Assembly (NCBI GenBank): GCA_016209205.1
Contig: JACQWQ010000010.1
Span: 17,810 to 81,809, forward strand
DNA from: Chloroflexota bacterium
GTDB taxonomy: Bacteria > Chloroflexota > Anaerolineae > UBA4142 > SHND01
Reading direction: 5' to 3'
Length of the DNA: 64,000 bases
The position numbers and the translations under genes are program-made. Below the pieces are notes generated by a model. The model did not search any database. It saw nothing but the letters and a program-made list of their open reading frames with translations, and was not told the DNA's origin. Shown in pieces: positions 3,261 to 63,947 of this stretch. How positions within the stretch are numbered: the stretch's first letter is position 1; each line of letters opens with the position of its first letter.

Positions 3261-4396
3261 CATCATTGATCCCTATTACAAAACCTTTTTTCGACGAAAA
3301 CGAAGAACGCGCGGCGGCGGAAGCGATTCGCAGCGGTTGGGTCGTGCAAGGTCCGCGCACGATTGAATTTGAGAAAATGGTCGCAGAACGCGTCGGCGCA
3401 AAATACGCACTCGCCACATCCAACTGCACCACCGCGCTCCATCTCGCGCTGATTGCACTGGGCATCGGTCCCGGCGATGAGGTGTTGGTGCCGTCGTACA
3501 GTTTTATTGCCACTGCCAACAGCGTCTTGCACGCGGGCGCGACGCCGGTGTTTGTGGACATTGACGCGCGCACGTACAATATGGACCCGCTGCGCATCGA
3601 GGAAAAAATTACCCCGCGCACGCGCGCCATCATGCCCGTCCATCAAATCGGGCTTGCCGCCGACATTGACACGATTCATGCGATTGCGCGTAAACACGAT
3701 TTGCTGGTCTTGGAAGACGCGGCGACGATCATTGGCGGAACGTACAAAGGCAAACCGATTGGCGCGCACAGTCGCGCGGTGTGTTTTTCGTTCCACCCGC
3801 GCAAAGCGATCACGACGGGCGAAGGCGGCATGGTCACGACCAACGACGAAAACATCGCGCGTCAAGTCGAAATGCTGCGCTCGCACGGCGCGAACGTTTC
3901 TGATTTTGCGCGACATACAGCGGGCAAAGTGGTGATCGAAGAATATCCGGTGCTCGGTTACAATTATCGCCTCACCGACATTCAAGGCGCGGTCGGCGTC
4001 GAGCAAATGAAAAAGTTGGATTGGATTTTGCAGCGGCGGCTGGAAATCGGAGAGCGTTACAATCAAGCGTTCGCGGATTTGGATTTTATCGAGACGCCGT
4101 ACGAACCGGCGTTCGCCAAGCACACGTATCAATCGTATTGCGTACGCATCGCGCACAATGCGCCAAAAACGCGCGACGAAATCATGGCGGCGATGCAGGA
4201 CGCGGGCATTGCCACGCGCCGCGGCGTCATGGCGGCGCATCTCGAACCGTTTTACGTCAACCAATACGGGCGCGTATCCTTGCCCGTCACCGAACAAGCA
4301 ACGCGCACGACGATGCTCTTGCCGATTTACGCGCAAATGACGGAGCAAGAAATCGGGACTGTCATTCACACCTTTCGCAAAATAGTAATCAGATAG
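3251..4396 (+). CDS. DegT/DnrJ/EryC1/StrS family PLP aminotransferase
   Basis: SFHPRKAITTGEGGMVTTND lysine motif; LGYNYRLTDIQGAVG. Confidence 0.92.
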   Translation: MGVTSLIPITKPFFDENEERAAAEAIRSGWVVQGPRTIEFEKMVAERVGAKYALATSNCTTALHLALIALGIGPGDEVLVPSYSFIATANSVLHAGATPVFVDIDARTYNMDPLRIEEKITPRTRAIMPVHQIGLAADIDTIHAIARKHDLLVLEDAATIIGGTYKGKPIGAHSRAVCFSFHPRKAITTGEGGMVTTNDENIARQVEMLRSHGANVSDFARHTAGKVVIEEYPVLGYNYRLTDIQGAVGVEQMKKLDWILQRRLEIGERYNQAFADLDFIETPYEPAFAKHTYQSYCVRIAHNAPKTRDEIMAAMQDAGIATRRGVMAAHLEPFYVNQYGRVSLPVTEQATRTTMLLPIYAQMTEQEIGTVIHTFRKIVIR

Positions 4397-4487
4397 TCGG
4401 ATTGTCGGTTGGTCGGTTAGTCGGTTGATGCAAAAGTCTTGACCATCCGACTATCCGACTCGCAGACCATCCGACTATCCGACCAAA
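4393..4487. repeat. Octamer fold-back element (GTCGGATN)n...(NATCCGAC)n
   Basis: agtcggat tgtcggtt ggtcggtt agtcggtt ... gaccatcc gactatcc gactcgca gaccatcc gactatcc gacc. Confidence 0.85.
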
Positions 4488-37474: not shown

Positions 37475-37565
37475 CTCACTGTTCACTGCACACTGATTAC
37501 TATTCACTGATCACTGATCACTGATTACCGATCACTGACCACTGATTACTGTTCACTACTCATCC
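37475..37565. repeat. Heptamer array (NNCACTG / ATTACTG units)
   Basis: CTCACTG TTCACTG CACACTG ATTACTA TTCACTG ATCACTG ATCACTG ATTACCG ATCACTG ACCACTG ATTACTG TTCACTA. Confidence 0.9.
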
Positions 37566-47091: not shown

Positions 47092-47330
47092 TAACATTGG
47101 AGGTTGGAGGTTGGAGGTTGGAAGTTGGAGGTTGGAAGTTGGAGGTTGGACGTAGAGACGTTCCGGTGGAACGTCTGGAGGTTGGAGGTTGGAGGTTGGA
47201 GGTTGGACGTAGAGACGTTCCGGTGGAACGTCTGGAGGTTGGAAGTTGGAAGTTGGAGGTTGGACGTAGAGACGTTCCGGTGGAACGTCTGGAGGTTGGA
47301 AGTTGGAAGTCGGAAGTTGGAGGTTGGAGA
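47092..47330. repeat. TTGGAGG heptamer array with three AGACGTTCCGGTGGAACGTCT palindromes at 57-bp spacing
   Basis: Palindromes at 47156-47176, 47213-47233, 47270-47290. Confidence 0.92.
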
Positions 47331-47359
47331 GGGAGAGATGAAGAGAGAGTGTGAGGAAG

Positions 47360-47540
47360 TAATCAGTTATCAGTAATCAGTGGCCAGTGATCAGCGACTC
47401 GCGATTTGTATGGGTGCGATTGTGCGATACGCGATTGGCGATATGCGAATCGCGATACGCGATTGACTATCTGCTATCAGCCATCGGCGATCAGCAATCT
47501 GCGATACACGATACGCGATTGGCGATTGGCGATTTGCCAC
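47360..47540. repeat. Heptamer array: TNATCAG units then CGATACG/CGATTGG units
   Basis: 16 consecutive 7-mers from 47425, all C at column 1 and A at column 3. Confidence 0.88.
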
Positions 47541-59177: not shown

Positions 59178-59287
59178 ACACTCCGACAAAGGCAAACACA
59201 GTCAAAGCTGTGGACGCAAAACTGAGGGACCTAAAACGGAGAAGTGAATTTCACTTCAGTCATGGTAGCCCGGTTGCCAAAGAGTGC
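59178..59287 (+). ncRNA. Cyclic-di-GMP-I (GEMM) riboswitch aptamer
   Basis: aCACTCcgacaaAGGCAAACacagtcaaagctgtGGACGCAAAactgaGGGACCTAAAAC...catGGTAGCCCGGTTGCCaaaGAGTG; P1 CACTC/GAGTG. Confidence 0.85.
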
Positions 59288-61237: not shown

Positions 61238-61293
61238 TGTTAAAAGGCAGTTGGACTGCCCTCGCCCGGCGGCAGTCCAACTGCCTTTTAACA
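61238..61293. repeat. Perfect 23-bp inverted repeat TGTTAAAAGGCAGTTGGACTGCC...GGCAGTCCAACTGCCTTTTAACA
   Basis: Direct reading, 10-nt loop ctcgcccggc. Confidence 0.92.
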
Positions 61294-61339
61294 ATGGCAT
61301 ATCTCCTCGTTTGCGCGTCCGCGTAAATCGCTTATAATG

Positions 61340-61640
61340 TCTGCACGGCTGACGCCCGCACGCGTCATTTAACAAAACTACAAGCAACAACACGCAGCGA
61401 AGTCGGGTGAAATTCCCGCGCTGTCCCGCAACTGTGAAGCGAGTGGGATAGTGCGATAGTGAGATAGTGCGATAGTGCAATAGTCGGAGAATCCTCCCCT
61501 AACGCACTATCGCACTACTGCACTATTGCACTATCGCACTACAAGCCAGGCCGCCTGTGTGTTGGGCTGGGAATGAATCCACGGGTCCATCATTCGCAGC
61601 AACTTGCGGAAACTTGTTTCCGCCGAACCTTCGCGAGAAA
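61340..61640 (+). ncRNA. Cobalamin riboswitch with repeat-expanded peripheral stem
   Basis: GTCGGGTGAAATTCCCGCGCTGTCCCGCAACTGTGAAGC ... AAGCCAGGCCGCCTG core; followed by btuF/btuC. Confidence 0.88.
61442..61541 (+). repeat. Octamer fold-back insertion inside cobalamin riboswitch
   Basis: gtgggata gtgcgata gtgagata gtgcgata gtgcaata gt...cgcactat cgcactac tgcactat tgcactat cgcactac. Confidence 0.9.
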
Positions 61641-61693
61641 GGGGGCAGACGTTTCATACACATTTGACGCACAAGCGTATTGTGCCTTTACCT

Positions 61694-61723
61694 CCTCTTG
61701 TCGAATCGGCAAGAGGTTTTTTT
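61694..61723 (+). terminator. Rho-independent terminator of the cobalamin riboswitch
   Basis: CCTCTTGTC gaatc GGCAAGAGGTTTTTTT. Confidence 0.85.
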
Positions 61724-61763: not shown

Positions 61764-62750
61764 ATGCAGTTCCGACAAAAAAAACTGAATCTCATTCTCG
61801 GCGCGCTGATCGGCTTGACGCTGTTTATCGCCGCCTGTGGCGCGCCGGTCGTACAACCCACCGCCGTTCCGCCAACCGCCGCGCCAACGCTTGCCCCAAC
61901 CCAAGCGCCGTCCGGCGTATCGCTTACCGACAGCGCGGGACGCAACGTCACACTCACCACTTTGCCAACGCGCATTGTCTCGCTCACACCCAGCACCACA
62001 GAAATCGCGTGCGCGGTCGGCGCGTGTGACAAGCTCGTAGGCGTGGACCAATTTTCGGATTTTCCCGCACAAGTCAAAACGCTGCCCAAACTGAGCGACG
62101 GGTTCAATCCGAATTACGAACAAATCGTCGCGGCGAAACCCGACCTCGTGTTGGTCGCGGGCATTACCTCCCCCGATGTCATCAAGAAATTGGAGGAATT
62201 GAAAATCAACGTGCTCGTCGTCGGCGCGGTCAGCACGACCTTTGACACGATCAAGAGTGAAATTGGAATGGTGGGCAAAGCGGTGGGCCGCGCCGATCAA
62301 GCCGCGCAAGTGGTCGCCGCGATGGATGTCAAGCTCGCCGACTTGGCGACAAAAATCGCGCAGGCAAAAACCAAACCGCGTGTGTTCTGGGAACTCGACG
62401 CGACGGACCCCGCCAAGCCGTTCACGCCGGGCCCCGGCAGTTTTATAGATGAAATCATTACGCGCGCGGGCGGCGAAAATGTGGCGCACAACGCGTCGTC
62501 GCCCTATCCGCAGCTCAACGCCGAAGAAATCATTCGAGCCAACCCGCAAATCATTATTCTCAGCGACGCGGCGTACGGCATCGCGCCCGAATCGGTGGGC
62601 AAGCGTCCGGGCTGGGATGTCGTACAAGCCGTGAAGGACAACAAGGTGTTTCCGATTGACGACAATCTCGTGAGCCGTCCGGGTCCGCGCGTCGTCGAAG
62701 GTCTGGAAGCCGCGGCGAAATTGATCCATCCCGAGTTGTTTACGCAGTAA
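61764..62750 (+). CDS. btuF: Cobalamin/iron-type ABC transporter substrate-binding lipoprotein
   Basis: LFIAACGAP lipobox; RIVSLTPSTTEIACAVGACDKLVGVDQFSDFP. Confidence 0.88.
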   Translation: MQFRQKKLNLILGALIGLTLFIAACGAPVVQPTAVPPTAAPTLAPTQAPSGVSLTDSAGRNVTLTTLPTRIVSLTPSTTEIACAVGACDKLVGVDQFSDFPAQVKTLPKLSDGFNPNYEQIVAAKPDLVLVAGITSPDVIKKLEELKINVLVVGAVSTTFDTIKSEIGMVGKAVGRADQAAQVVAAMDVKLADLATKIAQAKTKPRVFWELDATDPAKPFTPGPGSFIDEIITRAGGENVAHNASSPYPQLNAEEIIRANPQIIILSDAAYGIAPESVGKRPGWDVVQAVKDNKVFPIDDNLVSRPGPRVVEGLEAAAKLIHPELFTQ

Positions 62751-62831: not shown

Positions 62832-63947
62832 ATGGCAAGTCAGGATGTGATACCCAAGCCCGCTGCTGAAATCATACGTGCCGCGCGCGTAATCTCGGGC
62901 GTCAACCTGCGCGCATGGGTGCGGCATCCCGCGTTCGTCTTGAGTGCGCTCGGTTTGTTTCTGCTGGCGACGTGCATCCTCGCCATGCGTCTCGGCACCG
63001 TCAGCATCGAACCGGCGCAGATCATTGCGATTACACTGAAACGTACATTTGGGTTCGACCTCGGGGTTGTCTGGAGCGCCGCCGACGAATCTATCATTTG
63101 GCAAATTCGGTTGCCGCGCGTCTTGGGCGCGGCAATTGTCGGCGCGGGGCTGGCGGGCGCGGGCGTTGTGTTTCAAGGTCTCCTGCGTAATTCGATGGCA
63201 GACCCGTACTTGCTCGGCACCTCGGGCGGCGCGGCGCTCGCCGCAACCATCGCGTTTTTTATTCCGTTCTCCATCGGCGTCGCGACGTATGGATTTGTGC
63301 CCATCGCCGCCTTCTTTGGCGCGCTGCTCGCCGTGCTGCTAGTGTACCGCATCGCGCGGGTCGGAATGCACACGCCGATTACGACCCTGCTGCTCGCGGG
63401 CTTTGCGGTGAGTTCGATGCTGTCGGCAGTCATGTCGGCGCTGATGCTGTTGAGTCGCGGGACATTGGAACGCGTCGTCTTGTGGACGCTCGGCGGGGTG
63501 AGCGCGAGCGGTTGGAATATGTTGTTTGCGGTGACGCCGTTGATCGCGCTGGGCAGTGTCTTGGCGTTTTGGTTGTCGCACGATCTCAACGCGTTCTTGT
63601 TGGGCGAAGAACAAGCAGCGGCGTTGGGCGTGAACGTCGAACGCAAAAAATTTCTGCTGCTCGCCGTCGGTGCGCTGATGACGGGCGCGGCGGTTGCGTT
63701 GAGCGGGCTGGTCGGTTTCGTCGGACTGATCGTGCCGCACATTGCGCGCATCGTGCTCGGACCCGATCACCGTTTGCTCCTGCCCGCGTCCCTGTTGTGC
63801 GGCGCGATCTTTTTGGTCATTGCCGATTTGATTGCGCGCACGGTGATTGCGCCACAAGAAATCCCGCTCGGCGTCGTCACCGCGCTCGTCGGCGCGCCGT
63901 TTTTCATCGTGCTGCTGCGCCGCGCGAAAAAAGCGTACGCGTTTTGA
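62832..63947 (+). CDS. btuC: FecCD-family ABC transporter permease (cobalamin)
   Basis: IRLPRVLGAAIVGAGLAGAGVVFQGLLRNSMADPYLLGTSGGAAL; GLVGFVGLIVPHIARIVLGPDHR. Confidence 0.93.
   Translation: MASQDVIPKPAAEIIRAARVISGVNLRAWVRHPAFVLSALGLFLLATCILAMRLGTVSIEPAQIIAITLKRTFGFDLGVVWSAADESIIWQIRLPRVLGAAIVGAGLAGAGVVFQGLLRNSMADPYLLGTSGGAALAATIAFFIPFSIGVATYGFVPIAAFFGALLAVLLVYRIARVGMHTPITTLLLAGFAVSSMLSAVMSALMLLSRGTLERVVLWTLGGVSASGWNMLFAVTPLIALGSVLAFWLSHDLNAFLLGEEQAAALGVNVERKKFLLLAVGALMTGAAVALSGLVGFVGLIVPHIARIVLGPDHRLLLPASLLCGAIFLVIADLIARTVIAPQEIPLGVVTALVGAPFFIVLLRRAKKAYAF

Follow-up and report, generated by a model that had tools for sequence, protein, structure and literature searches.

A predicted cobalamin riboswitch whose variable arm matches the dispersed tandem repeats of its genome

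The leader and the genes downstream

The window, i.e., the whole stretch of 64,000 nucleotides of Chloroflexota DNA that was analysed, contains on its forward strand a leader whose sequence argues that it is a real cobalamin riboswitch, at 61388-61716, with the aptamer part at 61388-61564. Two genes follow on the same strand. We assign them to transporter families on the basis of the Pfam models, since the more specific NCBIfam models match below their cut-offs: a BtuF-like substrate-binding lipoprotein at 61764-62750 (Pfam Peripla_BP_2, 3e-38; NCBIfam BtuF, 2e-31) and a BtuC-like permease at 62832-63947 (Pfam FecCD, 1e-91; NCBIfam BtuC, 6e-87). Upstream of the aptamer, TATAAT at 61333-61338 (+ strand) is likely the -10 box of the leader's promoter; a consensus scan gave no good -35 box for it and no full sigma-70 site. 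TATAATG likewise lies upstream in the same-genus genomes G001, G002, G003 and G005. Between the promoter of the leader and the gene that precedes it, a perfect palindrome, TTAAAAGGCAGTTGGACTGCC...GGCAGTCCAACTGCCTTTTAA, occupies 61239-61292. A c-di-GMP-I riboswitch without a repeat insert is located at 59181-59281 (+ strand, 63.2 bits).

The aptamer is closed by a helix (P1/P3) in which the 5' strand CAACACGCAG (61388-61397) pairs with the 3' strand CTGTGTGTTG (61555-61564). All 10 pairs form in this riboswitch, and the helix covaries in the genus: among five same-genus species, 48 of 50 cells are paired and 5 of the 10 positions have two-sided changes. Next come the P5-L5 hairpin CGGG-TGAAATT-CCCG (61404-61418), placed by alignment to RF00174 and conserved in the order, and the conserved core GCTGTCCCGCAACTGTGA (61420-61437), which matches RF00174, comprises the T-loop region and the 5' strand of P6, and is near-invariant in 21 riboswitches. 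On the other side of the variable arm, the core resumes with AAGCCAGG (61543-61550) as part of the B12 box AAGCCAGGCCGCCTG (61543-61557), a variant of AGCCAGGAGACCTGCC common to five of the six genus members. The core elements present are therefore GGTG of L5, GCTGTCCCGCAACTGTGA and the AGCCAGG of the B12 box; the AGACC part of the box reads CCGCC, a genus-wide variant.

In the expression platform, CCTTCGCGAGAAAGG (61628-61642) is a probable P13-L13 hairpin, kept across the order and in one outgroup family, and its loop L13 may form a kissing interaction with L5. The somewhat longer segment CCTTCGCGAGAAAGGGGGCAGG (61628-61650) is conserved in almost every riboswitch of the order as well as in an outgroup family; this exceeds what is expected of a platform consisting of a simple terminator. 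An intrinsic terminator, CCTCTTGTCG-AAT-CGGCAAGAGG-T7, with a stem of 10 bp and 7 T, is located at 61694-61723 and is conserved in the order. An antiterminator duplex between AAAGGGGG and the terminator's 5' arm has a p value of 0.265 against shuffles in this leader, and it beats shuffled sequences in few species.

The octamer arm and its position in the aptamer

The variable arm is a 108-nt autonomous, near-perfect octamer hairpin at 61436-61543 (+ strand), as supported by minimum free energy (MFE) folding, and by the relatives' cmscan alignments for its position. In the literature this arm is called the P6 accessory region, and its length is highly variable (PMC9600662). Searches for tandem repeats (TRF) and inverted repeats found a 5' array of 5.4 copies of the AGTGCGAT type (61442-61483) and a complementary 3' array of the CTATCGCA type (61499 to about 61541); according to the inverted-repeat search, the two strands are 42 nt each, 83% complementary and 15 nt apart. 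As RNA, the arm has an MFE of -64.9 kcal/mol, while 200 shuffled sequences give -26.5 +/- 3.2 (z -11.9).

A sequence-only reading of this locus had proposed that about 100 nt of octamers and their complement form a long imperfect hairpin, and the repeat searches and folding bear this out. Its further statements, that the conserved core is intact on both sides of the arm and that a terminator begins at 61694, also agree with the features described above. It had described the peripheral stem as having been replaced or expanded. Because the usual arm within the class is a short plain hairpin, "expanded" is a better description than "replaced".

The sequence-only reading also placed the repeats within the aptamer, and suggested an alignment to the Rfam cobalamin model as a check. 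For relatives that have the same layout and score above the cut-off, RF00174 aligns over its full length, and the repeats fall between the two strands of P6. These alignments, together with the covariation in the closing helix, locate the repeats inside the aptamer, with the core motifs kept, so that neither of the two outcomes that the sequence-only reading had named as refuting it is observed. The check was less successful for the window's own copy, which scores 27.8 bits (E-value 3.3e-5), below the gathering score of 31.5 bits, because the model places its 3' end on a decoy, CGGAGA, within the array. Four of the six genus members score under the gathering value; other scores are 33.7 bits (G003) and 53 bits (G004) in the same genus, and 38-79 bits in the sister family. 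Arrays thus mislead the alignment at its 3' end, which accounts for the sub-threshold model scores of such riboswitches. Rfam microRNA models (mir-17 and mir-122) also match the arm, and we rejected these as chance matches to a hairpin.

We also considered whether pairing in the arm is maintained at the level of the RNA. Under purifying selection on RNA pairing, G.U mismatches in the sense strand should outnumber A.C mismatches. In 30 arms, we counted 40 G.U and 37 A.C mismatches, which is no signal of such selection. Because there is no G.U bias, we see no sign of RNA-level upkeep beyond the formation of a hairpin. The mismatches affect those letters of the units that vary, with TAGT staying constant. 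The array looks like a tolerated DNA-level repeat, and not like a helix that is maintained base by base.

Overall, the leader resembles the RF00174 btuF-type leaders, which have an L5-L13 kissing loop, in its core motifs, order of helices, terminator and downstream operon with BtuF-like and BtuC-like genes. However, it differs from them in that its arm consists of the genome's own 7- or 8-nt tandem repeats, and in that the genus lacks a separate P2 hairpin, has a changed B12 box and includes scores under the gathering value.

Array arms in related genomes and their match to dispersed repeats

We compared the arms of all cobalamin riboswitches that were identified in the order (18 genomes). Tandem fold-back arrays with 7- or 8-nt units occupy the same arm site in 18 of these 20 riboswitches, where G003 and G005 are borderline by periodicity; counts across the order partly reflect shared ancestry, since the species are not independent. 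A strict, gapless fold-back test is passed by about two thirds of the array arms, and the folding z score relative to shuffles is -2.6 or lower in all except two of them. The unit is in most cases particular to the riboswitch, e.g., TAGTGCGA in the window's genome, TAGTTGCA at one site and CAGTAAA at another in G018, CAGTCGC in G019 and AGTGGTA in G013; G006 and G009 both have TAGTCAAC. The remaining two riboswitches, in G004 (from the window's genus) and G012, have plain arms of 29-32 nt and keep the same core.

In other families of the class, a sample of 95 that was chosen partly for length yielded ten clear array arms, which come from eight families, plus two borderline ones, with further units. 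The strict screen of this sample counted 11 outside the order. One of these, L182, is a false positive with a plain hairpin of 17 nt, and wrong anchors were used in some of the extractions. Outside the class, arms are mostly the canonical CCACTG...GGGAAGG, and arrays occur in one family (f58). The original observation is real and wider than the single locus for which it was made: array arms with species-specific units extend across the order and to at least eight further families of the class.

The repeats in the arm are also dispersed in the genome. According to pattern and blast searches, on which all our genome-wide repeat counts rest, the AGTGCGAT pattern has 584 matches in the window's genome (G000) vs 18 for a reversed-pattern control, and the arm as a blast query has 156. 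By the strict, gapless test, 8 of 46 dispersed AGTGCGAT loci are accompanied by a complementary partner no more than 150 nt away, a frequency that applies to one genome and one unit. We saw by eye no shared flank or target-site duplication, which would mark a MITE or transposition, among 34 dispersed loci. Other arrays with 7- or 8-nt units (ACTGCTC, ACTGATG, GTCGGATA, TCACTGA and TTGGAGG) are present in the window at 716-806, 1894-2257, 4396-4483, 37476-37557 and 47097-47533. CAGTN3 arrays have 1606 matches in this genome, far above each of the 47 other genomes compared.

We then counted TAGTN4 and CAGTN3 arrays in 48 genomes, and defined a genome as array-rich if it has at least five matches. 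Array-rich genomes make up 22 of the 28 with array arms vs 3 of the 20 with plain arms (Fisher, 2e-5), and outside the order the corresponding fractions are 7/12 and 2/18 (p 0.013). The plain-arm genome G004 has zero such arrays; G012 and G150 are exceptions, being array-rich with plain arms. In array-arm genomes that have neither kind of array, the units are of other types (ATACC or TGGTC) and are outside this count. The TAGTCAAC pattern occurs only in G006, G009, G018 and G019, and weakly in G012; it is absent from the window's genus.

Predicted insulation of the core and possible explanations

In models of secondary structure without pseudoknots for 18 species, pairing between arm and core per nucleotide is 0.037 with native arms. 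With three kinds of control arm, which were shuffled or made one-sided by doubling of the 5' or the 3' arm, the values are 0.165, 0.132 and 0.159 (Wilcoxon p 5e-5, 8e-4 and 8e-6). In the same kind of model, the probability of P5 in the window's riboswitch is 0.89 with the native arm, and averages 0.40 when one-sided arrays taken from the same genome are inserted instead (62 inserts). It had been suggested from the sequence that the repeats are tolerated because they form their own stem. Our results are in line with this suggestion: in the models native arms pair less with the core, and dispersed arrays are mostly one-sided while nearly all of those in riboswitches fold back.

The explanation that we favor, with a probability of roughly 0.7, is that a functional, terminator-coupled B12 riboswitch offers, in a dispensable arm, a permissive site for the fold-back repeats of its genome, which would be neutral or selfish and renewed in each lineage. 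Under this explanation, the riboswitch would bind B12 and control the B12 transport operon through transcription termination. Its P6 accessory arm, presumably needed in no fixed form, would be filled by a fold-back array of the dispersed tandem repeat. The array would fold into a separate hairpin above P6 and thereby leave the core free of mispairing, while one-sided arrays would interfere with the core and be lost. The array itself would be a passenger of the arm, replaced over time in that genome's own unit. Points against this explanation are the sub-threshold RF00174 score of the window's copy, the array-rich genomes G012 and G150 with their plain arms, the even mismatch counts and, in most species, an antiterminator pairing no better than that of shuffled sequences.

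The alternative that is hardest to dismiss, although we consider it the more doubtful one, is that the arrays grew in place, through slippage and hairpin-mediated copying that started from the stem of the arm itself (P6/P7). Their likeness to other arrays would then reflect a common mutational grammar (TAGTNNNN, CAGTNNN). In agreement with this idea, a closing GTTAGT/ACTAAC is common to many species of the other family, units vary within an array around a fixed TAGT, and G006 and G009, which belong to one genus, have the same unit. However, heptamer arrays also occur in arms that have no TAGT stem (G013, G014 and G129), and the agreement of an arm with its genome's own unit is explained most simply by copying between loci.

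The sequence-only reading had suggested that copy number could tune folding kinetics. In this view, the length or copy number of the arm would be selected for its effect on pausing, stability or the time taken by co-transcriptional folding, and thereby on the threshold of the switch. A very stable arm that is transcribed ahead of the B12 box could delay closure of the core, and array arms do recur in many lineages. We nonetheless find such tuning unlikely, given that plain-arm relatives keep the same core and platform, that the RNA-level signature of pairing is absent in the mismatch counts above and that the same repeats are present at many other places in the genome. Decay of the genus's riboswitch, with an arm that fills with junk once selection has ceased, would fit the low RF00174 scores, the altered B12 box and the missing P2 hairpin. 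Yet the closing helix covaries, the core and platform are near-invariant, and arrays are no rarer in the sister family, where the riboswitches reach 38-79 bits; we therefore regard decay as very improbable. The assembly of the window's genome has 279 contigs and many repeats, which could raise the suspicion of an artefact, but the same architecture, with different units, recurs in independently assembled genomes of the order (17 other riboswitches), so that this explanation is scarcely credible.

If arms are indeed permissive sites for genomic repeats, they would form a natural series in which the same riboswitch carries many unrelated arm sequences, giving a direct view of how much an RNA fold tolerates. 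They would suggest a simple rule for repeats that enter a structured RNA, i.e., fold back or be lost, and the effect of repeat copy number on regulation by a leader becomes testable. A bolder proposal is that side arms are a recurrent, insulated home for fold-back repeats, and that array turnover alters the behavior of the switch and so tunes B12 (and in one case thiamine) regulation; we give this proposal little credence. The RNA is of a known kind, and the use of genome repeats as building material for its known variable arm appears to be undescribed: our literature search on riboswitch arms with repeats and on repeats of Chloroflexota, in which subscription journals were thinly covered, gave no relevant paper.

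A partly comparable case was reportedly described by Vioque in 1997, namely short tandemly repeated repetitive (STRR) sequences that lie within RNase P RNA in heterocystous cyanobacteria. It, too, concerns genomic heptamer repeats in a structured RNA, but the RNA and the phylum are different. Octamer arrays are absent from the RNase P RNAs of the order, where other palindromic repeats are found. In five of these RNAs (L251, L246, L247, L248 and L242, from G000, G002, G018, G009 and G010), dispersed palindromic repeats of the CCTCACCCC...GGGGT and CATCCTGAGCATAGTCGAAGGA types are in a variable stem. Heptameric simple sequence repeats in Xanthomonas and Nostoc are similarly short intergenic tandem units, some of them inverted, that vary between close relatives (PMC4692102). 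However, those repeats are G-rich and form quadruplexes (PMC4692102), unlike the TAGTNNNN/CAGTNNN units described here, which lie within a riboswitch aptamer.

Another riboswitch of the same genome has a comparable insert. Its TPP riboswitch (L273:1501-1695; contig C176:3212-3406) has 88 extra nt in the P3 arm, and units similar to GGCGATG are present in both arms of this insert. This insert folds at -58.8 kcal/mol (z -6.8), although its periodicity is weak (p 0.026), and the TPP riboswitches of relatives have short P3 arms. A general rule of repeat arms in riboswitches is plausible from this case, but not proven. Four cobalamin riboswitches (L100, L104, L105 and L106, from G010, G014, G016 and G017) have an extra hairpin in the L5 loop, which should disturb the L5-L13 kissing loop. 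The extra hairpin in G014 resembles a dispersed repeat, GTCCTGAGCGTAGTCGAAGGA.
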